A stretch of DNA of 34,281 nt from Sulfurovaceae bacterium (lineage in GTDB: Bacteria > Campylobacterota > Campylobacteria > Campylobacterales > Sulfurovaceae), in assembly GCA_016744315.1 (NCBI GenBank), contig JADGER010000007.1, forward strand, positions 1 through 34,281. Direction: 5' to 3'. Positions 4,721 through 22,161 of this stretch are shown piece by piece. A program made the translations under genes and the position numbers. The notes beneath the pieces were generated by a model. It was not told the DNA's origin. It made no database searches and worked only from the letters and a program-made list of their open reading frames with translations. Within the stretch, counting starts at the first letter, position 1; each line of letters begins with the position of its first letter.

Positions 4721-6211
4721 TTAATAACCGCTTGCACTTACCATATAGAAGATATATGAGATAAGAGGTTGCATAAAGAAGACTGAACCAACGGTTGCAG
4801 CGACTGCTATACCAATAATTGTCATCAATGGTTTAGATGCATTATAATAAACTGTATTATCATTTTCAACAGGGTCATATAAGAACATATAGACAATTAG
4901 TTTCAAGTAATAAAATGCAGCTATCGCAGAGTTAAGACCCATAACAACAGCTAACCAAATATATCCTGCATCAACTGCTGCACTCATAATATAGATTTTA
5001 CCCCAAAATATAGAGAATGGAGGAACACCTGCAAGTGAAAGCATAAAGAGTCCCATTACAACTGCACCCATTGGCATAATTTTAACTAATCCTGCAAATT
5101 TCTCGTAAGGGTGGTCATATCTTTCATGGAAAATTCTGTTTTTGTGACGACTAATCCATAACATTGCAAATGCACCAAGGTTTGTGAACATAAAGAGTCC
5201 ATAATAGAGGAATATCCCTGTATTTCCTTTGGTTGTATCAAGTGCCAAAGCAGCCATTACAAAACCTGCATGAGAGATAGAACTATATGCTAACATTCTT
5301 TTAACATCTTGCTGTACTAATGCCATCATATTTGAAAGAGTCATAGTAAGTACTGCGAGTATTAAAATCAAAATTCTAACCCACTCAACACCTAAATCAA
5401 TATACATACCAAAGATACGCATAGCTACTACAAATACTGCTATCTTAGGTACTATAGACATATAACCTGCTAAAGGAGCAGACGCACCCTCGTAAACATC
5501 AGGAGTCCAAGTATGGAAAGGGAAAAGAGAGAGTTTAAATGCAAATGCTGCAAGTAAAAATATTGACCCACCCAAAATTGTACCCATAACCGCAGGTTCA
5601 TTAATTCTATCTTGGAGAACATCTGCAACTTGGTATAACTCAATACTTCCTGTAAGTGCATAAATAATAGCAGAACCCATAACAAAGAAACCTGCTGCTA
5701 ATGCACCCATTGTAAAGTACTTCACTGCTGCTTCATACGAGTTGTTTCTATTATGAAGAGCAATAAGTGTATAAAGAGACAAAGATGCTGTTTCGATACC
5801 AACAAAAATAAGAACAAGATTATCACTTGCAACCATAAACTGGAATCCTGCAATCATAAACAAAAAGAGTGCAAAAAATTCAGGATATGAATACTCATGA
5901 AACCTTTTAGATGTTAATGCTAATGGGATAAACAGTATAGATGCTGCTAATATAAGAAGCTGTGAAATAATAGCAACACCATCAATAAGCATTACATCAA
6001 AAAAACCTCGTTCATTGACATTGAGTCCCATTACAGAACCAAAGTCAACAAATAGTATCAATATAGTCATCATAACATACAAAGACTTATGTAGGCCATC
6101 TTTGAATAGATCAATAATTAAAATAATCAATCCACCTGCTATAGCAATTAACATTGGTGATAAAGTTACCAAGTTTAGGGAAGCTAAACTTACATTAATA
6201 GGTTCTAACAT
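4721..6211 (-). CDS. nuoN: NADH-quinone oxidoreductase (complex I) subunit N
   Basis: This is an antiporter-like proton-pumping membrane subunit of complex I, last in the operon. The 496-aa protein is almost entirely hydrophobic, with about 14 predicted membrane segments. It has the hallmark helix with a buried glutamate (VGIETASLSLYT), the broken-helix motif FPFHTWTPDVYEG, and the lysine-bearing motif KRMLAYSSISHAGF, all shared with Mrp-type antiporters. Its ATG overlaps the nuoM stop by one base (TAATG), indicating coupled translation. Transcription probably ends at the palindromic hairpin just downstream. Confidence 0.96.
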   Translation of the reverse strand: MLEPINVSLASLNLVTLSPMLIAIAGGLIILIIDLFKDGLHKSLYVMMTILILFVDFGSVMGLNVNERGFFDVMLIDGVAIISQLLILAASILFIPLALTSKRFHEYSYPEFFALFLFMIAGFQFMVASDNLVLIFVGIETASLSLYTLIALHNRNNSYEAAVKYFTMGALAAGFFVMGSAIIYALTGSIELYQVADVLQDRINEPAVMGTILGGSIFLLAAFAFKLSLFPFHTWTPDVYEGASAPLAGYMSIVPKIAVFVVAMRIFGMYIDLGVEWVRILILILAVLTMTLSNMMALVQQDVKRMLAYSSISHAGFVMAALALDTTKGNTGIFLYYGLFMFTNLGAFAMLWISRHKNRIFHERYDHPYEKFAGLVKIMPMGAVVMGLFMLSLAGVPPFSIFWGKIYIMSAAVDAGYIWLAVVMGLNSAIAAFYYLKLIVYMFLYDPVENDNTVYYNASKPLMTIIGIAVAATVGSVFFMQPLISYIFYMVSASGY

Positions 6212-7737
6212 TATTCTGCCTCCTTCGTTTGTTTGCTGAGAATTATTGTCTCTTTGGCTTCAGGTGTCTGAGCCTTCTCTTCCATAAAGTTTAGTAGTGC
6301 TTTAACACTTGTATCAATAGGTGCTAACACTGGTTTAGGATATACACCTAACCATACAACAATTATAACAAGAGGAACTAATGCAGTCATTTCTCTAGCA
6401 TTTAAATCTGGAAGATTTCTATTTGCTTCATTTGTTATAGGACCAAAGAATGTTCTCTTAAAGAGTCTAAGCATATACATAGCCCCAATAATAATTGTTG
6501 TTCCTGCAAGAACTGTTGCTACTGGAGATACTTGATAGAATCCAAGAAGTACCAAAAACTCTCCAACAAATCCTATAGTAAGTGGTAAACCAACCGATGC
6601 CATTAGCATAATCCCGAAGATTACAGCATATTTTGGCATCACCGCAGCCAAGCCACCAAACTCGCTCATCTCTTTGGTATGTCGTCTATCATAGATAACA
6701 CCAACTAACATAAACAAAGCCCCTGATACAATACCGTGAGAGAGCATCAAAAAGACAGAACCACTAATACCTTCTGCATTCATAGCAAATGTACCTAGAA
6801 CGATAACACCCATATGTGATACAGATGAGTATGCAATAACTTGTTTCATATCTTCTTGAGCATATGCTACCATAGCGGTATAGATAATCATAATAACTGC
6901 TAAGACTGTCATAAATGGTATCATCATTACTGACGCATCAGGAAATAGCGGTAATGAAAATCTAATAAAACCATAAGTACCCATTTTAAGAAGTACCGCT
7001 GCAAGAATTACAGAACCTATTGTTGGTGCTTGACCGTGAGCGTACGGCAACCAAGTATGGAATGGAAACATTGGAACTTTGATAGCAAAGCCAGCAAAGA
7101 ATGCCATAAAGAGCCAAATTTGGTAATTAACAGGTAACACAAGTGCATACCAATCAGTAATAGAGAAACTCCACACACCAGAAACACTATAATAAAGATA
7201 TGCAATAAAGAGCATACCTACAAGCATTATAAGGGAACCTGTAAATGTATATAAGAAGAATTTAATTGACGCATAGATTCTTCTTGGTCCACCCCAAGCA
7301 CCAATAATATAAAGCATTGGTACCAAAGAGAGTTCCCAAAAGAGGTAAAATACAATAGCATCAAGAGCAACAAAAACACCTATCATCGTCATCTCTAAAA
7401 AGAGAAGAGAGATAATCATGTTTTTAACATCTTTTTCTATATTCATACCAATCATACCAAGAAGTGTCATCAAGGCAGCCATAATCACAATAAAGAGACT
7501 AATACCATCAACACCAACATAATAATTGATACCAAAATCAGGAACCAAAGGAATCAGTTCAACAAACTGCATTCCTGCATTAGTTCCATCAAAACTCATC
7601 CAGAGCCAAATAGCAAGTAGTAACTCCACTGTAGCTACACTAATACCATAGACCCTAGCACTACTTTTATCAACTACAAATCCTAGCAATCCTGCGACTG
7701 CGGGGAAGAATATTAATACACTTAAAATATTATCCAT
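6211..7737 (-). CDS. nuoM: NADH-quinone oxidoreductase (complex I) subunit M
   Basis: This is the second antiporter-like proton-pumping subunit. The 508-aa polytopic protein shows the buried glutamate helix (FWELSLVPMLYIIG), the FPFHTWLPYAHGQAP broken helix and a lysine/serine helix (KQVIAYSSVSHMGV). The length matches typical NuoM. The gene is preceded by a clear SD (TAAGGAG) in the 12-nt gap after nuoL and overlaps nuoN by one base. In the assembled complex it lies between NuoN and NuoL in the membrane arm. The polar C-terminal tail after about residue 480 is unremarkable. Confidence 0.96.
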   Translation of the reverse strand: MDNILSVLIFFPAVAGLLGFVVDKSSARVYGISVATVELLLAIWLWMSFDGTNAGMQFVELIPLVPDFGINYYVGVDGISLFIVIMAALMTLLGMIGMNIEKDVKNMIISLLFLEMTMIGVFVALDAIVFYLFWELSLVPMLYIIGAWGGPRRIYASIKFFLYTFTGSLIMLVGMLFIAYLYYSVSGVWSFSITDWYALVLPVNYQIWLFMAFFAGFAIKVPMFPFHTWLPYAHGQAPTIGSVILAAVLLKMGTYGFIRFSLPLFPDASVMMIPFMTVLAVIMIIYTAMVAYAQEDMKQVIAYSSVSHMGVIVLGTFAMNAEGISGSVFLMLSHGIVSGALFMLVGVIYDRRHTKEMSEFGGLAAVMPKYAVIFGIMLMASVGLPLTIGFVGEFLVLLGFYQVSPVATVLAGTTIIIGAMYMLRLFKRTFFGPITNEANRNLPDLNAREMTALVPLVIIVVWLGVYPKPVLAPIDTSVKALLNFMEEKAQTPEAKETIILSKQTKEAE

Positions 7738-7749
7738 TTATACTTCTCC

Positions 7750-9657
7750 TTAAGCTATTAACGCAGTAACTGCTGCGACGAGTAGCATCAAGACTAAACC
7801 TACTGCCATCCAATTAAGATAGTTAGAGAGGTTACCTGTCTGCATTTTTCTTGTTTGATCTCCACCTTTGAAGAAGAGATACGCAATTGCATCAACGCTA
7901 GCATCGATAATTTTCATATCTACTGATTTCCACATGATGTGTGATAAGAGGTAGTATGGTTTAGAAATAAACTCAGCATAAAATTGTGGAATATAGTATT
8001 GGTTTTTCAAGAGTTGATATATGAAACTATTTTCACATTTTTCATCTCTTTTAAGACCATTTCCATATTTTTTCCAAGCAAGTACAATACCACCAACTGC
8101 AAAAATAAGAACTAATATACCCAAATAAATTGCTAGATGATGAGTATGTTCACTCATTACATAGTCTGGCATAAGAGGTGAACTTGTAACAAACTCTTGA
8201 AATGCTCCTTGGAAGAATCCAGCAATAATTGCAAGTAATGCCAAAGGACTCATTGCAACTAATACAAATTTATACATTTCATGTGGATGAATATCAAACT
8301 CTTTATATCTTTCATCACCATCAAATGTTAAGAATACTTGTCTAAAGCTATAGAATGCTGTCATACCAGCAGTTACTACAAGCATAGCCCATAAAAAGAG
8401 TGTACCTTCATTGAATGCTGTTTCAATAATTGCATCTTTTGAGAAGAAACCAGCAAGTGGTGGAATACCAGCAAGAGCAATAGAAGCGATACCCATATAA
8501 AGATAAGTACCTCTCATCACTTTTTTAAGTCCACCCATTTTGAAGATGTCAAGCTCATCATGCATAGCATGCATAACATTACCTGCACCCAAGAATAACA
8601 ATGCCTTAAAGAATGCGTGTGCTGCAAGGTGGAAAAGTGCTATCCAATACGCACCAAGTCCAGCCGCTGCAAACATATACCCTAACTGTGAAAGTGTAGA
8701 ATACGCAATAATTCGTTTAAGGTCTCTATTAACCAATGCCATAGATGCAGCAAAAAATGCCACAAATGTACCAAGAGCTGCAATAAAGAAACTTACTTCA
8801 GAAACTTCAGGCATAGAATAAAGAGGATTTGCACGAATAACAAGGAAAACCCCTGCTGTTACCATTGTAGCTGCGTGAATCAATGCAGATACTGGTGTAG
8901 GACCTTCCATTGCATCTGTAAGCCAAGTATGCAGTGGAAACTGTGCTGATTTACCCATAGCACCAATAAAGAGTGCAATGGCTGCAAGTGTTAAGACAGA
9001 CTCATCTAAATATGGCAATGCTGCAAATACAACATCATACTGAAGTGACCCTGTGTTCCAATAAAGAACAAAAATACCAACTAGCATCGCAAGGTCAGCT
9101 ATACGGTTAACAATAAATGCTTCGTTTGCTGCCCAAGATGGAGAGATAGATGGATTAACTTCTGGAGACTCATCTTTTTTGTGATACCAAAAACCAATAA
9201 GTAACCAAGAACAAACACCAACACCTTCCCAACCAATAAAGAGTCCAGCAAAGTTATCACTCATAACAAGTACTAACATTGAGAAAACAAATGCTGATAG
9301 GTAAGAGAAGAATCTATTAAAACTCTTGTCGTGATCCATATATCCTATAGAATAAATATGAACAACTGTTGATACCAAAGTAACAACAACCATCATAGTT
9401 ACACTTACATGGTCAACCACAAATCCAAATGGAATAGCTAAATCACCTGCAGAAATCCAATCCATCATGGTTACATGAATACCATGCCCAGTTTGGACAA
9501 CATAGGCTGCTAAAATAGCTGAAGCAACAAAAGAGGTTGCTAAAAGTAAAGAGGCAATAACTCCAACAAAGGTCTTTTTAGGACTCATCCCAAAAAGAGC
9601 AGCAAAAAGAGAACTCACTAACGGTGCAAAAAGTGCAATATATACAAACTTTTCCAT
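7750..9657 (-). CDS. nuoL: NADH-quinone oxidoreductase (complex I) subunit L
   Basis: This is the distal antiporter-like proton-pumping subunit. The 635-aa protein carries the core antiporter fold, with the glutamate motif GWEGVGVCSWLL, the broken helix FPLHTWLTDAMEGPTP and the helix LIHAATMVTAGVF. It also has the long C-terminal extension expected of NuoL, whose amphipathic lateral helix (about residues 560-605) runs along NuoM and NuoN before a final membrane anchor. It begins 2 nt after the nuoK stop, with an SD-like AAAGGG inside the end of nuoK. Confidence 0.96.
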   Translation of the reverse strand: MEKFVYIALFAPLVSSLFAALFGMSPKKTFVGVIASLLLATSFVASAILAAYVVQTGHGIHVTMMDWISAGDLAIPFGFVVDHVSVTMMVVVTLVSTVVHIYSIGYMDHDKSFNRFFSYLSAFVFSMLVLVMSDNFAGLFIGWEGVGVCSWLLIGFWYHKKDESPEVNPSISPSWAANEAFIVNRIADLAMLVGIFVLYWNTGSLQYDVVFAALPYLDESVLTLAAIALFIGAMGKSAQFPLHTWLTDAMEGPTPVSALIHAATMVTAGVFLVIRANPLYSMPEVSEVSFFIAALGTFVAFFAASMALVNRDLKRIIAYSTLSQLGYMFAAAGLGAYWIALFHLAAHAFFKALLFLGAGNVMHAMHDELDIFKMGGLKKVMRGTYLYMGIASIALAGIPPLAGFFSKDAIIETAFNEGTLFLWAMLVVTAGMTAFYSFRQVFLTFDGDERYKEFDIHPHEMYKFVLVAMSPLALLAIIAGFFQGAFQEFVTSSPLMPDYVMSEHTHHLAIYLGILVLIFAVGGIVLAWKKYGNGLKRDEKCENSFIYQLLKNQYYIPQFYAEFISKPYYLLSHIMWKSVDMKIIDASVDAIAYLFFKGGDQTRKMQTGNLSNYLNWMAVGLVLMLLVAAVTALIA

Positions 9658-9659
9658 TA

Positions 9660-9962
9660 CTACCCTTTCATTGAAGCTAAATCATCAAGATCAAGCGTTC
9701 CAAATTTTTTGTAAAGGACTATAAGTAGTCCCAATCCAACCGCAACTTCACTTGCAGCAACTGCAATAATAAAGAATGCAAACATCTGCCCTGTTAAATC
9801 ATGGTAATAATATGATGCTGCTGCAAAAGCTATATTTGCAGAATTTAACATTATCTCTGTAGCAAAGAAGAGCATCAAAAGATTTCTTCTTCTAATAACT
9901 CCTACAAAACCAATTGCAAAAAGCAAACCTGAGAGTATAAGGTAATGACTAAGACCTATCAT
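9660..9962 (-). CDS. nuoK: NADH-quinone oxidoreductase (complex I) subunit K
   Basis: This 100-aa membrane subunit has three transmembrane helices and belongs to the proton-channel chain next to NuoJ and NuoA. The two conserved buried glutamates are visible in FATEIMLNSANIAF (helix 2) and AASEVAVGLGLL (helix 3). The size is exactly typical. Its start overlaps the nuoJ stop by four bases (ATGA), implying translational coupling. Confidence 0.95.
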   Translation of the reverse strand: MIGLSHYLILSGLLFAIGFVGVIRRRNLLMLFFATEIMLNSANIAFAAASYYYHDLTGQMFAFFIIAVAASEVAVGLGLLIVLYKKFGTLDLDDLASMKG

Positions 9963-10513
9963 TTTGTATCCTCCTGTGAGATGACTTTGTCATCGTTTGT
10001 AGTTAAACTATGATCCATCTTTTTACCTGCAAGAATAATACCTGCAATCATAGCAACCAAAAGCATCACCGCAGCTACCTCAAAAGGAACAAGATATTTA
10101 GTAAAGAGTACTAAACCAACTGCTTGTGCATTTCCTACTCCCTCTACAACAGGATACATAGCTTGAATATTTTCAGAAAATACAGGAGCAGCAAAAATAA
10201 TTACTAGCATAAGTGCTACCATACCACCCAAGAAAAATACTAAAGCATCATTTGTTGTTTTTTCTTTGATATCTCTTGTTGCATCAAAAAACATCATGGC
10301 AAATGCATATAGAGCCATTACAGCTCCTACATAAACAATAAGTTGAACAACTCCTAAAAAATCTGCTCCTAACATGAAGAAGAAACCTGAAATCAAAACC
10401 ATTCCTGCTGCCAATGAAGTCATCGCATACAGTATATTTTTACTTAAAACCGTCACTAAAAAAAGTCCTATTGTAAGGACTGAAAATAGATAAAAGGCTA
10501 TTTGCTCATACAT
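9959..10513 (-). CDS. nuoJ: NADH-quinone oxidoreductase (complex I) subunit J
   Basis: This 184-aa membrane subunit has five predicted helices. The conserved third helix, with its flexible glycine region (LIVYVGAVMALYAFAMM), is the pi-bulge helix linked to coupling in complex I. A strong SD (AAGGAG) lies in the 11-nt gap after nuoI. The hydrophilic C-terminal tail (about residues 168-184) is short and cytoplasmic by prediction. It overlaps nuoK by four bases. Confidence 0.94.
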   Translation of the reverse strand: MYEQIAFYLFSVLTIGLFLVTVLSKNILYAMTSLAAGMVLISGFFFMLGADFLGVVQLIVYVGAVMALYAFAMMFFDATRDIKEKTTNDALVFFLGGMVALMLVIIFAAPVFSENIQAMYPVVEGVGNAQAVGLVLFTKYLVPFEVAAVMLLVAMIAGIILAGKKMDHSLTTNDDKVISQEDTK

Positions 10514-10524
10514 TCTTTCTCCTT

Positions 10525-11148
10525 TTAGTATGCAAGTGGTGTTTGCTTGATAGTATCATCAGCATTTGGACTTACTGCACCAAATCCATCATACTCTTTT
10601 TGTTGTTTAAGGGCATCAATAGGTGTTAACATATCTTCAAACAAAGAGAAACTTGCTCTTTGTTCTGAAGCTGTCTCATACCGTCCGCCATGCACAATTG
10701 CAAGTTCAGGACATACTTCTGCACAATATCCACAAAAGATACATCGACCAAAGTTAATGGTATATTCAGTAACCTCTTTTCTTTGATTTTCATCATATTT
10801 TGTATCCATTTTAATACAATCAGAGATACAAATTTTTTCACAAAGACCACAACCAATACATCTATAATGACCACTCTCTAGGAGTCGTAACATATCATGT
10901 ATTGCACGGTATCGTGGAGAAATAGGTAACTTCTCTAAAGGATATTTAATAGTATGCATATTATCTTTAAAGAGTGCATTTCCCATTTCTCTAAGTGTAA
11001 CCCATAAGCCTACAAAGAGTTCCCCTTTTACTGTTCTCTCTACAACTTGACCAAACTTTCCTATACCACTTTGAGGGGTATGTTTAATGTCAAGCATTTT
11101 GTAAGACTGCTGTCCTGTATTTCTATTTTTAAATTCTTCTAAACTCAT
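10525..11148 (-). CDS. nuoI: NADH-quinone oxidoreductase (complex I) 2x[4Fe-4S] subunit I
   Basis: This ferredoxin-like subunit carries clusters N6a and N6b and passes electrons from NuoG to NuoB. Two C-x2-C-x2-C-x3-C motifs are complete: C97, C100, C103, C107 and C136, C139, C142, C146. In the first, the usual Pro after the last Cys is replaced (CISDC), with an extra Cys at 111. At 207 aa it is longer than many bacterial NuoI proteins because of N- and C-terminal extensions. The N-terminal amphipathic region (about 40-70) should anchor it to the membrane arm. An SD (GGAG) precedes the ATG. Confidence 0.95.
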   Translation of the reverse strand: MSLEEFKNRNTGQQSYKMLDIKHTPQSGIGKFGQVVERTVKGELFVGLWVTLREMGNALFKDNMHTIKYPLEKLPISPRYRAIHDMLRLLESGHYRCIGCGLCEKICISDCIKMDTKYDENQRKEVTEYTINFGRCIFCGYCAEVCPELAIVHGGRYETASEQRASFSLFEDMLTPIDALKQQKEYDGFGAVSPNADDTIKQTPLAY

Positions 11149-11157
11149 CTTGACTCC

Positions 11158-12186
11158 TTATATCATTACTACAATAGCGGTAATAAGAATATTTACCATC
11201 GCTAAAGGCATGAGTACTTTCCAACATAACCACATCAACTGATCAGGTCTAATATGTGGCCAAGAGGCTCTAACCCATAACATCAAGAAGAAGAAGAATG
11301 CAATTTTACCAATGATAATAAACCAACCAGCGATAAATCCTAAATCATTATATCCCCCAAGGAACATTACAGATGCCAAAATAGCTACAGTAATCATATT
11401 GGCATATTCACCAATAAAGAACATACCCCATCTCATACCTGAATACTCTGTTGCATATCCAGAGACAACCTCTGCTTCATGCTCCAAAAGGTCAAAAGGT
11501 GTTCTGTTTGTCTCTGCAAATCCTGCTATTAGGAATAATACAAATGCTACTGGCTGTTGCCAAATAAGCCATGATGTAAATCCACCAGCTTGATACTCAT
11601 TGAAATCAACCAATGAAAGAGAACCAACTAGCATAATAGGTGCAAGAATAGAAAGACCTGTTACAACTTCATAACTCAAAAATTGTATAGCTGTTCTTGC
11701 ACTTCCTATAATACCCCATTTATTTGCCTGTGCCATACCAGCAAGAAGTGGTCCATAAAGACCCGCTGCCATCATACCAAGAACAAAAAGAATACCTACA
11801 TTAATATCTGCTGCTATGGATGGTACAAATGTGCCACCCAAGAGAGGTATAAATTCAGGAATTGTAAAATCAGGAAAGACAGGAACTGCAGCTAAAGCAA
11901 TAAATGCTGTAGCTGCGGTAATCGCTGGTGCAATCTGAAAAATAAATTTATTTGCATTTTGTGGGATAATATCCTCTTGTGTAAAGAGTTTGATACCATC
12001 TGCCGCAATTTGCAAAAGTCCAAAAGGACCAACATGCATAGGTCCTAATCTTCGTTGCATAAATGCCAATATTTTACGCTCTATATAAGTACCAAATCCA
12101 GCAACGGCTGAGATTATTGCGAGAATAATAATCCCTTTTATAATCACACCCAGACTGGTTACTTCAGGTAATACTGTTGCTTCCAT
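11158..12186 (-). CDS. nuoH: NADH-quinone oxidoreductase (complex I) subunit H
   Basis: This is the membrane subunit that links the peripheral and membrane arms and forms much of the quinone chamber. The 342-aa protein has about eight membrane helices. It contains the family signature RRLGPMHVGPFGLLQ, followed by ADGIKLFTQEDIIP, and the acidic loop FAETNRTPFDLLEHEAE, both highly conserved around the quinone path. A strong SD (AAGGAAGG) overlaps the end of the preceding nuoG copy, leaving a 2-nt gap. Confidence 0.96.
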   Translation of the reverse strand: MEATVLPEVTSLGVIIKGIIILAIISAVAGFGTYIERKILAFMQRRLGPMHVGPFGLLQIAADGIKLFTQEDIIPQNANKFIFQIAPAITAATAFIALAAVPVFPDFTIPEFIPLLGGTFVPSIAADINVGILFVLGMMAAGLYGPLLAGMAQANKWGIIGSARTAIQFLSYEVVTGLSILAPIMLVGSLSLVDFNEYQAGGFTSWLIWQQPVAFVLFLIAGFAETNRTPFDLLEHEAEVVSGYATEYSGMRWGMFFIGEYANMITVAILASVMFLGGYNDLGFIAGWFIIIGKIAFFFFLMLWVRASWPHIRPDQLMWLCWKVLMPLAMVNILITAIVVMI

Positions 12187-12188
12187 AT

Positions 12189-14645
12189 TTATACCTTCCT
12201 TATTGTTACGGTTTTATATCTATCACTACCAAAGAGTGTATAAATATCATTTGCACTTTTGAAATCAGGGATAGAAACAATATCACCCTCCATTCTCTCA
12301 TCTGCAACCACATCAAAGAGCAGTGTACTTTTACCAAAGTCTACTTCTACTTTTTCACCCAATGCTTTTGCTTTTGCTGTACTAGCCGAGAGAGAGAATG
12401 TCTCAAAGATTTGATGTGCTTTATCAGAGAAATCATTAAACTGTCGCTGAGGATTACATCTGTACGCTATTTCACCTTCGATAACAAACTTTTCACTAAA
12501 TGGTTTTGGCTCATTTTTACCTGATCTTCTTCCAAGATTTTTCAGCAAATATCCACGATTTTCTTGACCTTCATTTGTATAACCATTTGGAAGATCATCA
12601 AAAGCCAAGGCTTGGAAACCTCTTTTAGACGCAAGTCTAGGAGTCCAATCTATAGTCAATAGTTCTCCACACTCTAAAGCATTCATAAGATCATTTAACT
12701 CATATCCCTCATACTCTAATGCTGCATTTGTTGGAGTTACTCTTTTGTGCATATTAGTCAGTGTTCCCTCTTGCTGGTTCATAGCTGGCATATCCAAATC
12801 ACCATCACCCAACGCAGAAAGTCTAAAGTCACCATTTTCATTATAACCTACAGTATAGCCTTCTACTTTTTCATCAAGCTCACACAAAAGTGCAACACCT
12901 AATGAATTAGTTTTAGGTGGAATCATAGCTACTTTCATATTACAACTTTTTTCTATCAAAGCAACAAGATGTGCCAAGTTTTCGGCTTTTGGATGATAAT
13001 AAAGATCTTCTCCAACGATAAGAGAGAATGACTCTTTTTTCTTCATCATTTTTTCAAATGTTTCAGCAAATTTATCATTACCACCAAGAAGTGTTACCAG
13101 AGAATTTCTCTCTACCTCTACCTCTTTTTCTACCATTTTAGGAACTTTTTTACTTACTTCTTTGCTCTCACCTGTTGCTTCATCTACAACAGTTTCAGTT
13201 ACTGTTTCCATCACTTTTTCTTTGATAGTAATAGTTTCTGTAAAGTGGAAAGAGTCAAGATAGCTTTTTGTACTCTCTTCTAACTTCTCTTTGTCGGCAA
13301 ATAAATCAAGAATCAAATAGAGTGCTGCTTCTTCTAGTCCTACTTTATGTGTAAAGGATACTACATTTTTTCCCATATCTGCAATAAGACTATCAGCAAT
13401 AGGATGGAAATAAAGACCTGCACCTTTATTCATTTTTTGGATATTATTAAAGGCATATCTTGCATTGGGATTATCATTTCGTAATGATGCTCCAACAGAA
13501 ATAACAAAATCTGTTGTCATAATCTCTTTGAAATCACTACCATACAAAAGATGACCAGATGGTTTTCCATAATATTTAAGAAATTTTTGGAAAGCATACG
13601 CATCAGAGTTTACTAACTTTTTGCCATACTTCTCTTTGAGCGTTTGAAGCATAAGTGCTTCTTCATTGCTAATAAGAGAATTAAATCGTATAGTATCTGC
13701 TTTTGTAAGTGCATCCACAGCATTATTAAAGGCTATTTCATCTTTACCGTTTACACGATTTTCAAAATCATATCCAAATCGCCCTGCTCCACAAAGTGAT
13801 ACATAGTTCCACTCATTTGTTACACGGAATATTTTTTCTGTATTATCTTCTATAGAAGCTGGTTTTGTCTCATAATATATCTGACATCCACTACTACAGT
13901 GCGCACAAGTAGCAGGAATCCGTTTAAGATCCCAAGCATTTGTAGTATATACAAAATCTCGACTTACTAATGCACCCACAGGACATACAGCAATACATTC
14001 ACCACAATCACTACAATTTGTCTCTGCTGTTCCATTGCTAGGAATAATCACAGATTTCTGAAGCTTATTCCACATAGCATAGGCATCTTTAGGCATAGAA
14101 TCTTTTAACTCTTTGCCTAATTTTTCTCCGCCTCTTGGCCCTGTTTTGATAGCTGCATCACCCATCATATCTTTACAAACTGTTACACATCTTTCACATA
14201 CAATACAAAGACCTGCATCATAATGAAGAATGCTACTCCAATCTACAGATTCTCTTTTAGTATCAGGAATCATATAACTTTGTGAATCTACAGCTAATTC
14301 AAGTGTGTAGTTTTGTAACTCACACTCACCACTTTGATCACAAACACCACATTGAAGAGGATGGTTCACATCATAAACTTCCATAATAGCTCTACGCTCT
14401 TCGAGAATCTCTTCAGTACTAGTTGTAACTTCCATTCCATCTTTGGCTTTTGCATTACATGCATACACTCTTTTTCCATCAGCTTCTACTAGACAGATAC
14501 GACAAGCAAGTGTTGGCGAACATCGTGTCAAGTAGCAGATAGCAGGAACAAAGATATTATTAGCACGAGCAGCATTTAGAATATATTCACCCTCTTGGGT
14601 TTTATACTCAACACCATCAATCTTAATCGTTATTTCATTACTCAT
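12189..14645 (-). CDS. nuoG: Complex I Fe-S subunit G, second tandem copy
   Basis: This NuoG-family subunit has an N-terminal Fe-S region followed by a degenerate molybdopterin-oxidoreductase-like domain. The cluster ligands are all visible: [2Fe-2S] C37, C48, C51, C63; His-Cys cluster H95, C99, C102, C108; two ferredoxin-type clusters C147, C150, C153, C157 and C211, C214, C217, C221; and an N7-type set C247, C250, C254, C285. Residues about 470-513 form a charged Glu/Lys/Val-rich insertion absent from the neighbouring copy. The 818-aa length is close to other epsilonproteobacterial NuoG proteins. It starts 1 nt after the stop of the first copy. The two copies are clearly paralogous (for example TNSLGVAL and GDLDMPA-NQQEG in both), pointing to an old tandem duplication. 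Confidence 0.93.
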   Translation of the reverse strand: MSNEITIKIDGVEYKTQEGEYILNAARANNIFVPAICYLTRCSPTLACRICLVEADGKRVYACNAKAKDGMEVTTSTEEILEERRAIMEVYDVNHPLQCGVCDQSGECELQNYTLELAVDSQSYMIPDTKRESVDWSSILHYDAGLCIVCERCVTVCKDMMGDAAIKTGPRGGEKLGKELKDSMPKDAYAMWNKLQKSVIIPSNGTAETNCSDCGECIAVCPVGALVSRDFVYTTNAWDLKRIPATCAHCSSGCQIYYETKPASIEDNTEKIFRVTNEWNYVSLCGAGRFGYDFENRVNGKDEIAFNNAVDALTKADTIRFNSLISNEEALMLQTLKEKYGKKLVNSDAYAFQKFLKYYGKPSGHLLYGSDFKEIMTTDFVISVGASLRNDNPNARYAFNNIQKMNKGAGLYFHPIADSLIADMGKNVVSFTHKVGLEEAALYLILDLFADKEKLEESTKSYLDSFHFTETITIKEKVMETVTETVVDEATGESKEVSKKVPKMVEKEVEVERNSLVTLLGGNDKFAETFEKMMKKKESFSLIVGEDLYYHPKAENLAHLVALIEKSCNMKVAMIPPKTNSLGVALLCELDEKVEGYTVGYNENGDFRLSALGDGDLDMPAMNQQEGTLTNMHKRVTPTNAALEYEGYELNDLMNALECGELLTIDWTPRLASKRGFQALAFDDLPNGYTNEGQENRGYLLKNLGRRSGKNEPKPFSEKFVIEGEIAYRCNPQRQFNDFSDKAHQIFETFSLSASTAKAKALGEKVEVDFGKSTLLFDVVADERMEGDIVSIPDFKSANDIYTLFGSDRYKTVTIRKV

Positions 14646-14646
14646 C

Positions 14647-16920
14647 TTAACTATCCATTGTTTCTAATTTGGGTTGATTAAATCTATAAGAGGATACCGT
14701 AGAGCTACTTAAGCCCATATCGAAGCTAGGGTTAATAGCTACAGTTCCTTTCATTAATGTATCAATCATAAACACTCGTTCATATACTACGCCATCTAGT
14801 TCAAATTTAACTTTCGCACCATCTTGGAGCTTTGCAATGCTTGCAAACTGTGCAGATCCTCTCAAAAGAGCTTCAGTTTGTAACTGTTCACAATTATTAG
14901 TAAAAGCAGAAAATTGAGTATTTGTGTTACAGTGATAGATAACACTTCCATCATAAGTAGGAAGTGTACTTACTTCATCCAATTTACCATTCTTTTTATA
15001 ACGAGACTGTGTTAATAAATACCCACGGTGTTCCTCTCCTACACTATTATAGTAATCAGGCAAGTCATCAAACTCTATTGCTTGATAGCCATTTTCTATA
15101 GGAAGTTTTACTGTGTAATCTATTGTATTTGTAGCATTAATATCTAAGGCATTGGCTATATCATTAAGTGTATATCCACCATAAGGGAGTCCTGCATTTG
15201 TAGGAACTACTCTTTTATCCAAAGAAGTAAACGACCCTTCTTGTTGATTAAGTGCTGGCATATCTAAATCACCATTACCCAAAGCACTTAAGACAAAATC
15301 AGCCTTTGTGTTATATCCTACGCTATATCCTTCTACCTCATCATCTAAATCACAAACTAATGCAACACCTAAAGAATTTGTTGCAGGTGGAACAAGAAGC
15401 ACTTCAAAATCACTATATGCTTGGATAAGACCCAAAATTTTAGCAATATTTTCAGCTTTAGGATGCGTATAAATATCTGCACCCACAACCAAAGTAAATC
15501 CTGATTTTTTATCAAAAGAGTGAAGAAGAGCATCAAGTTCTTCTTCTCCAATATTACTCTCAGCACTTAAATTACCAATATCTAAATCATCCAAATATGC
15601 TTGTACTACTTTTGTTGGTTTTTGAGCATCAAGCAATGTATACGCAAGCAACGCAGCCACACCCTCTTCGCTTCCAACTTCGTACTTTATAAATTGTGTA
15701 ATAATAGCTTGAAGAGAAGAATCTTCTATTGGATGCATATACGCAACTCTTGCTCTTTGTCGTCTACTTGCCATAGTAATATGATATTTAACCATAGGAT
15801 TATCATCATTAATGCGTGTACCAAAAACAATAATACCTCTTGATGTTGAAAGGTTTTGAAGATTTCCACTATAAAGAGATTTCCCTGTCATACTAGAAAA
15901 TGCATGTAAAAATTTCTGATAGCCTCTTGCTTCATCACAAATAAGCTTTGTTTGATACTTCTGCTTAATACTTTGAAGTATCATCGCTTCTTCGTTAGTA
16001 ATAGTAGCCGTAAAAGAAATACTCTCTGCTTTTTTTACAGCCTCTACAGCTTTGGCAAAGGCATCACTATCTTTGCTTACTGATTCATTAGCATAATCAA
16101 AACCAAATCGTCCAGCACCACAAAGAGAAGAGAATTCAAAATTATTCGTTACTCTATATATCTTCTTTTGTGTATTTCCAATAGCTGTATCTTTTATCTC
16201 ATAATTCATTTGACATGCCGCACTACAATGAGAACAACTTGCAGGAATTTTTTCTAACTCCCAAGCATTGGAAGAGTATTTAAAATCTGTACTCACTAAT
16301 GCCCCTACAGGACAAACAGACATACACTCACCACAATTACTACATACTTCATCTTGTTTGGTATTAATAATAGTAGAGTTATATCCTCCAGCTGAAATAG
16401 CTAAAACATCATCACCTACAATCTGTGTACATACATGCACACATTTTTCACACATAATACACAGGCTAGGGTCATACGAAATAAAACCCCAATCTTGCAC
16501 AGGTCTATGAGGCTCTTTAGCAGAAAAACTCTGCCCAGCTACATCAAATTCCATAGTCTTATTTTGTAAGTCACACTCACCACTCTTATCACAAACACCA
16601 CATTCAAGTGGATGGTTTACATCATAGAGTTTCATAATACTTTGTCTTTGTTTATGAATTGCGTCTGTAGTTGTTGTAATAACAGCACCATCAACAGCTT
16701 TCTCCTGACAAGAGAGAATCATACCATCAACACCCTCCACATCAACCACACACATTCTACAAGATGCTATTGGTTCTACTTTTGTGAGGTAACACATTGT
16801 TGGGATATAAATATCATTAGCTCTAGCAATATTTAAAATAGTATCACCTTTGCTTCCTTGACAACTCTTTCCGTCTATAGTAAGTGTTATACTATTTGTA
16901 TCTATTTTTTTTGCTGTCAT
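14647..16920 (-). CDS. nuoG: Complex I Fe-S subunit G, first tandem copy
   Basis: This is a second NuoG-family protein, 757 aa from the chosen start. The ORF track begins at 16989, inside nuoF. The ATG at 16920 (MTAKK) is preferred because it lies 1 nt after the nuoF stop and puts the [2Fe-2S] domain at the usual distance from the N-terminus. The ligands are complete: C43, C54, C57, C71; H103, C107, C110, C116; C154, C157, C160, C164; C193, C196, C199, C203; and N7-type C229, C232, C236, C267. The C-terminal half is a molybdopterin-enzyme-like fold without catalytic signatures. Compared with the second copy it lacks the charged insertion. Which copy occupies the canonical NuoG position cannot be told from sequence. 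Confidence 0.92.
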   Translation of the reverse strand: MTAKKIDTNSITLTIDGKSCQGSKGDTILNIARANDIYIPTMCYLTKVEPIASCRMCVVDVEGVDGMILSCQEKAVDGAVITTTTDAIHKQRQSIMKLYDVNHPLECGVCDKSGECDLQNKTMEFDVAGQSFSAKEPHRPVQDWGFISYDPSLCIMCEKCVHVCTQIVGDDVLAISAGGYNSTIINTKQDEVCSNCGECMSVCPVGALVSTDFKYSSNAWELEKIPASCSHCSAACQMNYEIKDTAIGNTQKKIYRVTNNFEFSSLCGAGRFGFDYANESVSKDSDAFAKAVEAVKKAESISFTATITNEEAMILQSIKQKYQTKLICDEARGYQKFLHAFSSMTGKSLYSGNLQNLSTSRGIIVFGTRINDDNPMVKYHITMASRRQRARVAYMHPIEDSSLQAIITQFIKYEVGSEEGVAALLAYTLLDAQKPTKVVQAYLDDLDIGNLSAESNIGEEELDALLHSFDKKSGFTLVVGADIYTHPKAENIAKILGLIQAYSDFEVLLVPPATNSLGVALVCDLDDEVEGYSVGYNTKADFVLSALGNGDLDMPALNQQEGSFTSLDKRVVPTNAGLPYGGYTLNDIANALDINATNTIDYTVKLPIENGYQAIEFDDLPDYYNSVGEEHRGYLLTQSRYKKNGKLDEVSTLPTYDGSVIYHCNTNTQFSAFTNNCEQLQTEALLRGSAQFASIAKLQDGAKVKFELDGVVYERVFMIDTLMKGTVAINPSFDMGLSSSTVSSYRFNQPKLETMDS

Positions 16921-16921
16921 A

Positions 16922-18931
16922 CTACACCGCCACCATAGAGATATAATAACAACGCATACATCGTTCAGACTCTGCAAGTGCTTCTTCACCTGTAAAACCT
17001 AGATTAACTTCTTTATTGTTATCTCTTCGCTCGTCTACCCCAAGTTTTTCACTCTCTGCTCGTGGTAAACCTGGCATCCAGCCTGTAACTTTCTCTTTTT
17101 TATCATAAACTCTCAACTTATTAAGATGATCTTCCATAATCTCATCATCAGTAAGTGATATTTTGCCATCATAAATATAACGACTCATTACTGAAGCTGC
17201 TCTTTTGGCTTGTCCTACTGCATTTACAATAGTCATAGGACCATATTCACAATCTCCACTCGCAAAAAGCCCTGCTCTACTTGTCATATAATCTTTACCA
17301 TTTGTAAGGATAGTATTCCACGAAGTAAGTTTGATTTCCCATTCTTCAGGCAGAAGTTGTAAATCAGCAGCTTGTGAAACAGCAGGAATAAGATAATCTG
17401 TTTCTATTTCAAAATCACCATCTTCAATCTTCAATAATTGTGCTCTTCCACCATTTGGATCAGGAACAAGTTCAAACTTATTGATAAGTAATTTTGTTAA
17501 TTTATTATTTTCATCATAAATTTTCTCTACAGCTGAGTGGAAGATAAACTCTACACCCTCTTCTACTGCTTCGTGATACTCTTCGTAAGTAGTATTACGG
17601 ATAATAGTCTTCTCATCACGACGATAAATCATCACAACTTTTTTGGCTCCCTCACGAATAGAACATCGTACAACATCCATAGAGGTAAATCCACCACCAA
17701 CACATACAACAGTTTTGTCTTTGAGATCTTCAGAAGCAGAAGAACCAATACCATATTTGCTCCATAGATTTACTTTATCAAGCATATCTATCGCACCCCA
17801 ATATCCATCCATATCTGGTCGTTCATTTTCTGCACGAACCTTTTTGGAAAGACGAGTACCAAAAGCAAGCATTGTAGCATCATACTCTGCGTCAATCTCT
17901 TTGAGTCTAGTAGCGTCAACACGATGATTAGAATAAACAGTAACTGATTCCATAGAAGTTACGAGTTCAATATCTTTATTATACTTATCTATTGGCATAC
18001 GATATTCAGGTACACCTACAGCAACTTCACCACCAAGTACTGGTAGCTCTTCAAAAATATCAACTTGGATACCTTCTAAAGCCAAATAGTAAGCCGTAGT
18101 CAAACCAGCAGGACCAGCTCCAATAATAGCAACTTTCTTACCATCATTTTTCAAAGGCTTTGGCTCAAAAGGGTGCATCCACCCTAAACCATGATCTGTC
18201 TCATAATCTGCACCTAATCTTTTGAGTTCCATAATAGCTATAGGCTCATCAAGATTAGTTCGTCTACACGCATCTTCACATGGATGAGGACAAACTCGTC
18301 CACAAGTATGTGCCAAAGGCATAGTTCCTCTTGTAGCAGCAAGTGACTCAGAGAAAACCATATCTCGAACACCCTCTATATATGCAGGAATATCTACATG
18401 TGCAGGACACATATCTGTACACGGTGCAGTAACTTTGGCTATATAATTAACATCTGCATTATAATGTTTAGAAGGTGTTTGATTATCTATAACATAATCA
18501 AACTGATCTTTATAATGCTCCATCAAATCTAATATTGGCTTTGGTACAGTTCGTCCTATCTCACATTTGGAAGTAAGCATCATAGTCTCACTTACCTCTT
18601 TAAGGTGATCTATATCTGCTGTAGTACCCTCGCCTCTAGCTATTTTATCAAGAAGGTCAAAAAGTATTCGTCCACCCCATCGTCCAGGTGCACATCTACC
18701 GCATGCTTCTGAATAAACTTGATATTGAGCTGCGTACTCTGTTGCAAGTCTTATAGCATCTATATCCTCTTGGAATATTGCTACACCGTCCCATCCGATA
18801 AAAGCTTTAGAGCGTCTATCGGCAGTGTAATCCTCAGGAAGTTTAAATGCTGACTGTCCCCACTCATCAGATGATTTACCACGATTATCGATAAACTCAT
18901 CTTGCCAAGTGGAGAAAACAACTTCTGACAT
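16922..18931 (-). CDS. NuoF-position flavoprotein: NuoF-like Fe-S remnant fused to GltD/NfnB-like oxidoreductase
   Basis: This protein occupies the nuoF place in the operon but is not a normal NuoF, as the FMN/NADH-binding domain is absent. Residues about 75-140 resemble the NuoF C-terminal Fe-S domain, with C77, C80 and C123. The third ligand position is Gly83. Residues about 165-235 form a DPYD/GltD-type double-cluster domain (C171, C175, C210, C214, C218, C222). An FAD-binding Rossmann motif follows (GAGPAGL, 271-277), and then an NAD(P)-binding one (VGGGFTSMD, 411-419). The C-terminal flavin motif is GLFASGD. A C-terminal ERCMRC (C658, C661) may supply missing cluster ligands. The likely role is to pass electrons between NAD(P)H or ferredoxin and the NuoG Fe-S chain (inference). 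Its ATG overlaps the preceding stop (TAATG). Calling it nuoF by position would mislead. Confidence 0.85.
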   Translation of the reverse strand: MSEVVFSTWQDEFIDNRGKSSDEWGQSAFKLPEDYTADRRSKAFIGWDGVAIFQEDIDAIRLATEYAAQYQVYSEACGRCAPGRWGGRILFDLLDKIARGEGTTADIDHLKEVSETMMLTSKCEIGRTVPKPILDLMEHYKDQFDYVIDNQTPSKHYNADVNYIAKVTAPCTDMCPAHVDIPAYIEGVRDMVFSESLAATRGTMPLAHTCGRVCPHPCEDACRRTNLDEPIAIMELKRLGADYETDHGLGWMHPFEPKPLKNDGKKVAIIGAGPAGLTTAYYLALEGIQVDIFEELPVLGGEVAVGVPEYRMPIDKYNKDIELVTSMESVTVYSNHRVDATRLKEIDAEYDATMLAFGTRLSKKVRAENERPDMDGYWGAIDMLDKVNLWSKYGIGSSASEDLKDKTVVCVGGGFTSMDVVRCSIREGAKKVVMIYRRDEKTIIRNTTYEEYHEAVEEGVEFIFHSAVEKIYDENNKLTKLLINKFELVPDPNGGRAQLLKIEDGDFEIETDYLIPAVSQAADLQLLPEEWEIKLTSWNTILTNGKDYMTSRAGLFASGDCEYGPMTIVNAVGQAKRAASVMSRYIYDGKISLTDDEIMEDHLNKLRVYDKKEKVTGWMPGLPRAESEKLGVDERRDNNKEVNLGFTGEEALAESERCMRCYYISMVAV

Positions 18932-19236
18932 TACTCAGCCTTCTCTTCATCAGTCAGGGAAGACTCTTCATTTTTTTGTGCATTAATTCTTGCTTGAGCT
19001 ATAGTTTTATCAACTTTTTTAACTACAATTGTCCAGTCAACTTCATTGAATTTTAGGGAATTCATAAGGTCATTTCCTGATGCTTTAATAAAGTCTGCAC
19101 TTTTTTGAATAGAAGAAAAATCGCCTACTTCAAAAAGGAAAATACCAACTTCACCACTCTTTAACTCTTTGTCAATCAATTCACCCATTCTATCATAGAA
19201 TTCATTTTTCAAATGTCTTAAATCATATCTTTGCAT
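18931..19236 (-). CDS. Small NuoE-position protein without Fe-S ligands
   Basis: This 101-aa soluble protein lies where nuoE normally sits. It contains no cysteine at all, so it cannot carry the [2Fe-2S] cluster N1a of true NuoE. By size and operon position it matches the small complex I accessory proteins of Helicobacter and Campylobacter (the HP1264/Cj1575c type). The N-terminal part (about 1-75) looks like a compact alpha/beta fold, and the last 25 residues are charged and probably disordered. A very strong SD (TAAGGAGG) precedes the ATG, and the stop overlaps the start of the flavoprotein gene, so the two are probably made in a fixed ratio and may bind each other. The molecular function is unknown. 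Confidence 0.75.
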   Translation of the reverse strand: MQRYDLRHLKNEFYDRMGELIDKELKSGEVGIFLFEVGDFSSIQKSADFIKASGNDLMNSLKFNEVDWTIVVKKVDKTIAQARINAQKNEESSLTDEEKAE

Positions 19237-19245
19237 TGTGCCTCC

Positions 19246-20475
19246 TTAGCGGTCAACTTCACCAAATACGATATTGGTTGTACCAATAATCGTAACAACA
19301 TCTGCGATATATGTCCCCACCAAAATCTCTTGTAACAATCCTGTATGGAAGAAACTAGGTGCGCGACACTTCAATCTATATGCATACGGCTCACCTTCAG
19401 ACTTGATATAGAATCCAAGCTCACCTTTTGGTGATTCAGTAGGTGCATATACTTCACCTACTGGTGGTCTCATACCCTGAGTAACCAACACAAAGTGTTG
19501 CATCAAAGCATAGTTTTGTGTCATTATCTCTTCTTTTGGAGCTGAGATATATTGCGGTGCATGTGCCATAAGTTTTGGTTCAGTCTTATCATACATAGGG
19601 ATAAGTTGTCTTAAAATTCTTACTGATTGACGCATCTCTTCCATATAAAGAGAATACCGTCCATAACTATCACACTTATCAGAAATAGGAACATCAAAAT
19701 CAAGCTCACCATAAAGCTCATATGGTTCTTCTTTACGAATATCATATTTGATACCAGAACCTCTAATCATAACTCCAGAACAACCCCAAGAGAGAGCCTC
19801 TTCTGCTGAAAGAACTCCTACATCTTCAAGACGCATTTTCCAGATTCTATTTTCTGTCAAGAGTGCTTCATAAGTATGCTCTAGCTCATAATTTACCTTT
19901 GTACAAAACTTAGATAAATCTGTTAACCAGTTTTTTGGAAGATCCAAAGGGACACCACCAATACGAACAGCTGAGTGAGTCAATCTTGCACCACAATAGT
20001 CTTCCATTAAGTCCATAGCAAACTCTCGTTCACGGAATGCATACAAGAATACAGACATAGCTCCAACATCAAGTGCATGTGTTGCTACAAAGAAAAGGTG
20101 AGAGATAATACGGTTAAGCTCTAGTAGCATTGTACGAATTACTTTTGCTCTTCTAGGGACTTCTAAACCTATCAATCGTTCTACACTCAAAGCATACGCA
20201 TAGTTATTAGAAGTAGATGCAATATAGTCTAGTCTATCTGTTGTTGGCAAAAACTCATTATAAGTCATATTCTCTGCCATTTTTTCAATACCACGGTGAA
20301 GATACCCAATATCTGGATATGCTTTTTTGACAAGCTCACCCTCTAATTCTAGCACCAATCGTAACTGACCATGTGCAGATGGGTGTTGTGGTCCAAAGTT
20401 GATTACCATTGTATTGTCATCTCGTTCAAAATTGAGGTTTTCAAAGAATGGGGTTAATTTATTGGTTACTTGCAT
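19246..20475 (-). CDS. nuoD: NADH-quinone oxidoreductase (complex I) subunit D
   Basis: This 49-kDa-type subunit forms the quinone headgroup pocket together with NuoB and is descended from the [NiFe]-hydrogenase large subunit. The 409-aa protein contains the conserved loop [20 protein letters not shown] near residues 28-47, with the quinone-contacting histidines, and ends in the conserved [18 protein letters not shown]. The hydrogenase Ni ligands are absent, as expected for complex I. Here nuoC and nuoD are separate genes rather than fused. A GGGAGAG SD lies in the 9-nt gap after nuoC. Confidence 0.96.
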
Positions 20476-20484
20476 GTTCTCTCC

Positions 20485-21276
20485 CTACTTTCTTTTCTTC
20501 AGCGTTGTTGTACCTGTAGTGTAGTCAACCATAAATGTTTTACTATACTCTATTGGACTCTCTTCTTCTTTACCCTCTTCAAGTTCAGCACCAAATGGAA
20601 CTTCATATCCAACTCTTGAGAATCTTTGAGAATCATAACGCTCTACACTAGCGGGGTCTCTATTTTCTGGACCTACAACATCACGATACTCTTTACCAAA
20701 TATTTTATCTACTTCATACCAAGATGCAAATTCATCTCCTTGAAGAGGATAAGTTTTAAGAAGAGGATGTCCTTCCCAATCATCAGGCATAAGTATTCTT
20801 TTCATAAAGGGATGATTATTGGCTTTAATACCAAACATATCAAACATTTCTCGTTCTGCAAAGTTTGCACTTTTAAACAAAGGAACAATACTTTCTACTG
20901 CTTCACCCTCTTTGATACGGCATACAATTCTTACTCGTTTGGCTTCGTTGAGATTGAGCATTTGATAAAATACTTCAAACTCTCCATCTTGTGCAAGATA
21001 ATCTACAGCACTTAGCTCTGAACACATAGCATAGCCACACTCATCACGAAGTATTTGCAACGCTTTAAAGTTATCTGTAGCATTAATAACAATACGGAGC
21101 TGACCTATCTGAACGCCAGCTTCTTTGATAGTAACTGCATTAGAAATAGTATCTACAACACTCTCAAAATGAGAGCCTGCTTCTACTTCTAAAGTAGGTA
21201 CTCGTGGAGCAACCCAAAATCTATCAGTATAGTAAGATTTTTTTTGTACATTGTCTTTTGGTGTATATTTTCTCAT
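20485..21276 (-). CDS. nuoC: NADH-quinone oxidoreductase (complex I) subunit C
   Basis: This is the 30-kDa-type peripheral-arm subunit, which packs against NuoD and NuoB and has no cofactor. The family signature is seen in FAEREMFDMFGI and in the following HPFMKRILMPDDWEGHPLLKTYPL (quoted in part). At 263 aa it exceeds the about 200 aa of many bacterial NuoC proteins, mostly through an N-terminal extension and a charged C-terminal tail. That is usual for epsilonproteobacteria. The start lies 1 nt after the nuoB stop. Confidence 0.94.
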   Translation of the reverse strand: MRKYTPKDNVQKKSYYTDRFWVAPRVPTLEVEAGSHFESVVDTISNAVTIKEAGVQIGQLRIVINATDNFKALQILRDECGYAMCSELSAVDYLAQDGEFEVFYQMLNLNEAKRVRIVCRIKEGEAVESIVPLFKSANFAEREMFDMFGIKANNHPFMKRILMPDDWEGHPLLKTYPLQGDEFASWYEVDKIFGKEYRDVVGPENRDPASVERYDSQRFSRVGYEVPFGAELEEGKEEESPIEYSKTFMVDYTTGTTTLKKRK

Positions 21277-21277
21277 T

Positions 21278-21790
21278 TTATACTATCCTCTGCTTCACAT
21301 TTTTTTTCATATCCGCAGACTCTCTTCTAATCTTCTTTTGCAACATCATCATAGCATATTGCAATGTTTCAGGTCGTGGAGCACAGCCTGGAAGATAAAT
21401 ATCTACAGGAACTATTCTATCAACCCCTTGCACTGTTGCATAAGTATTAAACATACCACCTGTATTTGCACAAGACCCCATAGAAATAACCCATTTTGGC
21501 TCAGACATTTGGTCATAGAGTCTGCGTGCAAACTCTGCATGTTTTTTAGAAAGTGTTCCTGCAAGTATCATAACATCTGCTTGTCTTGGTGACGCTCTAA
21601 ATATTGTACCCATTCTATCAAAGTCATAACGACTCGCTCCAGATGCCATCATCTCAATCGCACAACAAGCCAAACCATAAGTAAGTGGCCAGAGTGAATT
21701 AGATCGTCCCCAGTTGACTAGTTTGTCTACTGATGTTAGTGCTATTGGTAACCCTGCTGATGAGGCGTAGTTTACTTGATGCTGTGCCAT
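21278..21790 (-). CDS. nuoB: NADH-quinone oxidoreductase (complex I) subunit B
   Basis: This is the PSST-type subunit carrying the terminal [4Fe-4S] cluster N2, which reduces quinone. The unusual tandem cysteine pair C42-C43 (LACCAIEMM), C107 ([10 protein letters not shown]) and C136 (LPGCAPRPE) are all present. At 170 aa it is typical in length. The gene overlaps the end of nuoA by 19 nt, and its SD (AAGGAG, 7 nt before ATG) lies inside the nuoA coding sequence, which supports this start and tight coupling. Confidence 0.97.
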
Positions 21791-22161
21791 TCAAGTGCTC
21801 CTTTTTTCCATGCGTAGACGAATCCAATCGTCAAAAGTAATATAAACAGAACCATCTCTGCAAAACCGAACCATCCAAGCAACTTAAAGTCAATCGCCCA
21901 TGGAAACATAAATATGATCTCTACATCAAAAAGAATAAAGAGTAGTGCAATCAAATAAAACTGTATTGATATTGTATTTGGTTGCTTTGTTACTTCTGGT
22001 CCGCATTCATATATCGATAGTTTTAACTTTTGCGTATCAAGTTTTGCAAGCTTCCTACTAACAAATCTAGCTGCTGCTAGAGTTGCAGGGAAGGCAATAG
22101 CCGTCAATGCAAACAGAAAAAAGATACCGAAGTACGGGTGTTCTGTTACCACATGAGTCAT
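21772..22161 (-). CDS. nuoA: NADH-quinone oxidoreductase (complex I) subunit A
   Basis: This is the first gene of the complex I operon. The 129-aa protein has three membrane helices. The loop after helix 1 contains the signature YECGPE, and helix 2 has the conserved FLLFDVE-like stretch (here [15 protein letters not shown]). It helps form the entrance to the proton path and the quinone chamber with NuoH and NuoJ. A strong SD (GGAAAGGGG) precedes the ATG. The upstream leader contains a 9-nt inverted repeat complementary to this SD, noted separately. Confidence 0.96.

Follow-up and report, generated by a model that had tools for sequence, protein, structure and literature searches.

Why would a single operon for a proton-pumping complex I encode two NuoG subunits side by side? 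The question is raised by the window, a stretch of 34,281 nucleotides from a vent-type bacterium whose family was identified as Sulfurovaceae in a scan of named genomes, and in which an unbroken nuo operon runs on the minus strand from nuoA at 22161 to nuoN at 4721.

The operon, its two NuoG genes and the flavoprotein

The gene order is A, B, C, D, X, a NuoF N3-domain/GltD fusion, G1, G2, H, I, J, K, L, M, N, on one strand and with neighbouring genes separated by no more than about 15 bases (Table 1). The initial annotation had described two adjacent nuoG genes in one operon, both with complete Fe-S ligands including N7, as duplicated yet diverged copies. This description stands: both are intact open reading frames, both score above the curated cut-off of 591 of the NuoG model NF006305/PRK08493, and their alignment of 801 columns, C-terminal blocks included, gives 40% identity. 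Because the same order is repeated in more than 100 independent genomes, the two-nuoG arrangement is not a product of chance or an assembly artefact.

Table 1. Features of the nuo operon in the window, with position, strand and the evidence for each assignment.
Feature	Position	Strand	Evidence
nuoD, nuoC, nuoB, nuoA	19246..22161	-	C, D: NCBIfam; A, B: position and homology to other loci
nuoX, 101 aa, no cysteine	18931..19236	-	PF16514, E 3e-40; family of FMN-binding HP1264
NuoF N3-domain/GltD fusion (Fglt), 669 aa	16922..18931	-	Pfam PF10589, PF14691, PF07992
Fglt NuoF-type N3 domain, third ligand Cys to Gly (CGRCAPGR)	18497..18715	-	CCGC in 135/135
Fglt GltD part	17174..18430	-	six invariant Cys; GxGxxG FAD motif; GGGFTSMD and YRRDE nucleotide motifs
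nuoG1 (G1), first NuoG, 757 aa, proposed flavoprotein-G2 adapter	14647..16920	-	NF006305, 889 bits; five ligand sets
G1 N1b-type [2Fe-2S] ligands	16708..16794	-	complete in 143/144 G1; remaining one cut by contig end
G1 N5-type His/Cys3 ligands	16573..16614	-	144/144
G1 two-cluster ferredoxin domain (N4-type FS-A and FS-B)	16312..16461	-	FS-A 144/144, FS-B 91/144
G1 N7 ligands	16120..16236	-	CCCC 131/144, CCHC 9
G1 residues ~350-512, NuoY-homologous part	15385..15873	-	profile-profile alignment and kept columns
G1 residues ~639-757, second NuoY-homologous part	14650..15006	-	profile-profile alignment and kept columns
nuoG2 (G2), second NuoG, 818 aa	12189..14645	-	NF006305, 1080 bits; found in both operon states
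G2 N1b ligands	14457..14522	-	176/177
G2 N5 ligands	14322..14363	-	177/177
G2 two-cluster ferredoxin domain, insertion between clusters	13983..14207	-	FS-A 177/177, FS-B 176/177
G2 N7 ligands	13791..13907	-	intact in window; 121/177 overall
nuoH, I, J, K, L, M, N	4721..12186	-	H, I, N: NCBIfam; others: position and homology

The gene set is that of a proton-pumping complex I (NDH-1), with nuoA, H and J-N alongside B, C, D and I, and the place of nuoE-nuoF-nuoG is filled by nuoX, the fusion, G1 and G2. The operon shares NuoA-D, NuoH-N, the NuoG fold and the N1b, N5 and N4-type clusters with the canonical NADH-linked NDH-1 of E. coli and Thermus, but has neither NuoE nor a NuoF with the FMN/NADH domain PF01512, which was not found in the fusion and whose sole match in the genome lies on another contig. 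It further differs in its two NuoG genes, in an N3 site with three Cys, and in an extra ferredoxin-type cluster per NuoG, as the E. coli and Thermus proteins have one fewer than G1 or G2. Pieces of a canonical complex I are present elsewhere in the genome bin, namely a nuoCD fusion, nuoE and a nuoF with the normal N3 motif SCGQCTPCREG (G000:C162:566-3977, L232) and a separate 455-aa canonical NuoG (G000:C272:28617-29984, L231); these may represent a genuine second complex I or bin contamination. Since the bin carries its own nuoCD-E-F and canonical NuoG, neither G1 nor G2 need serve NuoEF, and we rejected the explanation that one of them does so elsewhere in the genome. Outside the operon, dnaG (27742-30540, plus strand, 932 aa) has an apparent intein, with a Zn-ribbon at residues 4-69, intein-splicing and homing-endonuclease (LAGLIDADG) domains at about 171-440 and the primase core from 498, and a 578-aa DNA methylase followed by an 877-aa ResIII-domain protein (275-4644, plus strand) has the appearance of a type III restriction-modification pair.

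Five cluster sites are found in each NuoG copy: N1b, N5, two ferredoxin-type [4Fe-4S] sites and N7. The ligands in G1, whose start was placed at the ATG at 16920 (with the alternative GTG, 69 bases upstream, the gene would overlap its neighbour), are C43, C54, C57 and C71 for N1b, H103, C107, C110 and C116 for N5, C154, C157, C160, C164, C193, C196, C199 and C203 in the two-cluster ferredoxin domain, and C229, C232, C236 and C267 for N7. The G2 equivalents are C42, C48, C51 and C63; H95, C99, C102 and C108; C147, C150, C153, C157, C211, C214, C217 and C221; and C247, C250, C254 and C285. N1b, N5 and N4-type ligands, the hallmarks of NuoG, are thus present in both copies, and the AlphaFold model of G1 (mean pLDDT 86.5) has the NuoG/formate dehydrogenase fold (TM 0.76-0.78; E. 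coli NuoG, TM 0.76). Across 144 G1 and 177 G2 sequences these ligands are practically never lost from either copy, the pattern expected if both carry electrons, and because of this near-invariance the canonical wire clusters (N1b, N4, N5) appear to be selectively kept in both; in the first set of G2, N1b, N5 and both ferredoxin clusters were kept in 41/41. The emphasis initially placed on N7 did not survive the larger sample: its ligands are absent from G2 in 56/177 sequences, and 22 of these loci retain G1. In these alignments N7 is dispensable. The idea that the N7 of G2 is a port for the extra module, based on a first hint (22/41, from the first 40 loci), failed with more genomes, and is ruled out by Helicobacteraceae-type NuoY loci that keep N7 and by the 22 G1-bearing loci without it. 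Some loci have an unusually long G2 (955 aa in L220, 929 aa in L224), which suggests further NuoG insertions.

The fusion combines a NuoF-type 4Fe-4S domain (residues 73-145), a GltD 4Fe-4S domain (168-247) and an FAD/NAD(P) oxidoreductase domain (265-575). In its N3 site, residues 77-123 of the protein, the third Cys is a Gly (CGRC[AT]PG) in every fusion holding the site; no variation is seen in the other three N3 Cys, in six Cys of the GltD part or in a CxxC at the C-terminus. The site may hold an Fe-S cluster with an open or unusual ligand, and a normal N3-to-N1b hop is doubtful because it is one ligand short in every sequence. As to the donor, NADPH is suggested by sequence motifs, YRRDE in particular. 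The closest solved relatives, by sequence and by fold, are the NADPH-binding subunits of NfnABC/StnABC, followed by NfnL, for a structure model of the fusion with a mean pLDDT of only 73. Like the StnABC/NfnABC transhydrogenases (8oh5, 9bov, 9n5u), the window links a GltD FAD/NADPH module to NuoG-type Fe-S clusters; in contrast to them, it does so on separate polypeptides encoded in a membrane complex I operon, and the NuoF-like FMN/NAD subunit is reduced to its N3 domain, with no PF01512. Without that subunit, there is no evident site for bifurcation. Aquifex aeolicus NuoEFG (7q5y) and the bifurcating hydrogenase HydA (7t2r, 7q4v) also have a NuoG-type N-terminus with two ferredoxin-type clusters, but have one NuoG-type subunit and a canonical NuoF-type partner.

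NuoY and the fate of G1

NF006305 has matches in 284 of 298 Campylobacterales genomes at E <= 0.001, 240 of them above the cut-off. Among 100 loci and the window, the region from nuoX to G2 occurs in two states: 58 have the fusion together with full-length G1, and 41 have neither and carry a short gene of 215-343 aa instead, the rest being cut by contig ends. Another 80 loci came from the scan of named genomes; 76 of them have the full set and the other four are cut by contig ends. The pairing of flavoprotein and G1 is also obeyed in further lineages of Campylobacterales. Wherever a sampled family has the two genes, they keep to the nuo operon. G2 is the orthologue of the single NuoG in the Campylobacter/Helicobacter-type complex I, and the short gene has the position of HP1265/Cj1574c (NuoY), after nuoX and before nuoG. 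From gene order and the description of nuoXY (PMC6682613), the NuoY state was placed in Campylobacter, Helicobacter, Sulfurospirillum and part of Arcobacter. The flavodoxin-linked, epsilon-type complex I of Campylobacter and Helicobacter shares with the window its operon order, a PF16514-type NuoX, a G2-type NuoG and the lack of NuoE/NuoF. It has NuoX/NuoY in place of NuoE/NuoF, whereas the window has no short, Fe-S-free NuoY and in its place a cluster-bearing, full-length G1 with the NuoF-N3/GltD flavoprotein.

NuoY sets from four families aligned with G1 in HHalign at 99.9-100% (E 5e-31 to 3e-64) and less strongly with G2 (7e-7 to 5e-24); comparison with NuoC, NuoD, NuoI and the fusion gave no match. 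Six NuoY examples had no significant match to a relevant Pfam family and only weak NuoG matches in NCBIfam. Nor was any NuoF, FMN or N3 family matched by these six, although HP1265 has been annotated as NuoF; the NuoY-NuoF comparison was made with the N3 domain of the fusion (no match). The homology covers two parts of G1 (Table 1), and NuoY is without the middle block (G1 residues 513-638) and without every Fe-S domain. On these comparisons NuoY is a stripped, Fe-S-free C-terminal piece of G1; a guess from BLAST labels that it is an N-terminal Fe-S fragment of NuoG was wrong, as it corresponds to the C-terminal half. In the open literature that we searched, no statement deriving NuoY from NuoG was found and the second nuoG was not discussed, though an earlier mention in single-genome papers is possible.

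In a tree of the shared part, G1 and NuoY are split from G2 with 100/100 support, and the NuoY of the Helicobacteraceae-type family (f2) clusters with G1 from that same family. Uniting all NuoY in one clade, as a single origin would require, is rejected (AU p=0.0047). According to these trees NuoY arose by repeated, parallel truncation of G1, and the nesting of NuoY within G1-bearing lineages, above all in family f6, argues for loss rather than gain. On a NuoB+D+H tree the operon states need six changes, at least five of them on well-supported branches, so that the fusion and full-length G1 were lost jointly at least five times. Flavoprotein and G1 are concordant in 5/5 independent pairs (p=0.0625, with only 5 pairs). 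In the sampled genomes full-length G1 is an obligate companion of the NuoF-GltD flavoprotein. This coupling, the gene content, the ligands, the identity of NuoY and the parallel losses are all read from sequence.

These trees also date the duplication, for which the initial annotation had assumed a tandem event and proposed a phylogeny as the check. Run across Campylobacterales, it places the divergence of G1 and G2 (100/100 support) before the split of all sampled families; a duplication is upheld, but a local, recent tandem event is contradicted. With distant outgroups as root G1 appears paraphyletic, and long branches make this root unreliable. The combination of G1 and flavoprotein is probably the ancestral state, as judged from the nesting of the NuoY states within trees that leave the root unfixed. 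Orphan NuoY genes (256 aa) occur outside nuo operons in two Arcobacter-type genomes (L212:8107-8877 and L213:7773-8543), both of which have a complex I of the canonical NuoEFG kind; the L212 copy is flanked by genes for an AAA ATPase and a PF02621 protein of menaquinone biosynthesis. Given that it survives there outside any nuo operon, this C-terminal part of G1 may also do something else.

A probable place for G1 in the complex

We consider it fairly probable that the operon encodes a complex I, likely in its ancestral Campylobacterales form, with G2 and a permanent G1, the C-terminus of which anchors it while its Fe-S half adapts the flavoprotein. G2 would be the ordinary NuoG, seated on NuoI/NuoCD, and G1 a second NuoG, permanently incorporated, with its C-terminal domain anchoring beside G2 and its Fe-S half serving as adapter for the NuoF-N3/GltD flavoprotein. 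Electrons would enter from NADPH (or NADH) to the FAD of the GltD domain, pass to the GltD [4Fe-4S] and/or the modified N3 site, and continue through the G1 clusters (N1b, N4-type, N5) and the G2 clusters to N6a/N6b (NuoI), N2 (NuoB) and menaquinone. The presence of both NuoG in one particle, their arrangement in series, the donor and the direction are what we infer here; 'in series' is the favoured reading. Flavodoxin or ferredoxin could still enter nearer to G2, as in C. jejuni, and where NAD(P)H input was abandoned, the flavoprotein and the Fe-S half of G1 would have been lost together, leaving the anchor as NuoY. The nearest worked example for electron transfer from GltD to NuoG is, by analogy, StnC, in which a GltD domain is joined to a NuoG domain and electrons run from NADPH via FAD and 4Fe4S to the NuoG clusters, the N7-side branch being off-path (PMC10482914). 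For C. jejuni, a passage of PMC4178425 that cites Weerakoon and Olson reports that flavodoxin feeds in through NuoY, probably together with NuoX, and H. pylori NuoX (HP1264) binds FMN (PMC6269979). This link between NuoY and the flavodoxin-dependent activity of complex I makes it probable that the domain from which NuoY descends binds the complex, and a flavodoxin role together with an FMN-binding NuoX is consistent with an anchor next to the entry site.

The alternative that fares best, although we regard it as unlikely, has G1 and the GltD fusion working apart from complex I as a soluble oxidoreductase, for example a Stn/Nfn-like NADPH:ferredoxin enzyme, whose genes are merely co-transcribed with those of the complex. 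The building blocks are those of soluble StnABC/NfnABC and the two genes are perfectly coupled; however, both hold their place in the nuo operon in every sampled family that has them, the fusion lacks the FMN/NADH domain of NuoF that Stn/Nfn possess, and the C-terminal part of G1 was retained in place at least five times after loss of the module, which argues for contact with complex I. Slightly more doubtful again is a single complex with G1 as a parallel or branch entry, feeding NuoI beside G2 or bridging the flavoprotein to ferredoxin. The same three wire-type clusters are preserved in G1 and G2, the altered N3 site makes standard NuoF docking unsure and NuoG-type clusters can act as a branch in Stn, but the operon encodes one NuoI and one NuoB, with a single canonical NuoG place on NuoI, and a parallel second NuoG site on complex I has, to our knowledge, no precedent.

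The initial annotation had offered three options: two NuoG in series, alternative isoforms, or one copy working with the flavoprotein. The first and third merge into one because full-length G1 obligately accompanies the flavoprotein and is most simply placed between it and G2. Isoforms, with either G1 or G2 in each complex and swapped for different donors, would suit full-length homologues in one operon, but we think them very improbable: both operon states have G2, which G1 never replaces, the G1 remnant persists as NuoY, encoded beside G2, and the two copies have distinct family-wide patterns of cluster loss. That G1 is a redundant or decaying, functionless duplicate can hardly be maintained, for although it evolves faster (60-71% identity to near relatives, compared to 68-78% for G2), its wire ligands are all preserved in 144 sequences, it is conserved across families spanning Campylobacterales, and dN/dS is about 0.15, a rough value from the single computable pair and near saturation (dS is saturated in most pairs, which leaves dN/dS of little use).

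A possible origin of flavodoxin-linked complex I

A fuller reading, which we put forward tentatively and as an even call at best, is that two serial NuoG with NADPH input via the GltD flavoprotein are ancestral, and that stripping of G1, several times and independently, gave rise to the flavodoxin-linked form seen in Campylobacter, Helicobacter, Sulfurospirillum and some of the Arcobacter group. On this reading the ancestral complex would comprise some 16 candidate Fe-S sites (five in each NuoG, two in GltD, one modified N3, two in NuoI and one in NuoB), the flavoprotein would dock on the outer NuoG, and NuoY would be a cluster-free anchor.

The most valuable new point is what NuoY is, together with its repeated origin: a subunit without a family is placed as a descendant of NuoG and is probably not a NuoF, and the flavodoxin-linked complex I of Helicobacter/Campylobacter-type bacteria gains a concrete origin. 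The two operon states provide natural before/after pairs for studying how complex I gains or gives up an electron donor module, and for asking whether a second NuoG can lengthen the electron wire. The proposed electron path would be reversible and, in sulfur- or hydrogen-oxidising autotrophs, would plausibly run backwards, using the proton-motive force to make NADPH; if true, this would be a route to NADPH by reverse electron flow in such autotrophs at vents.
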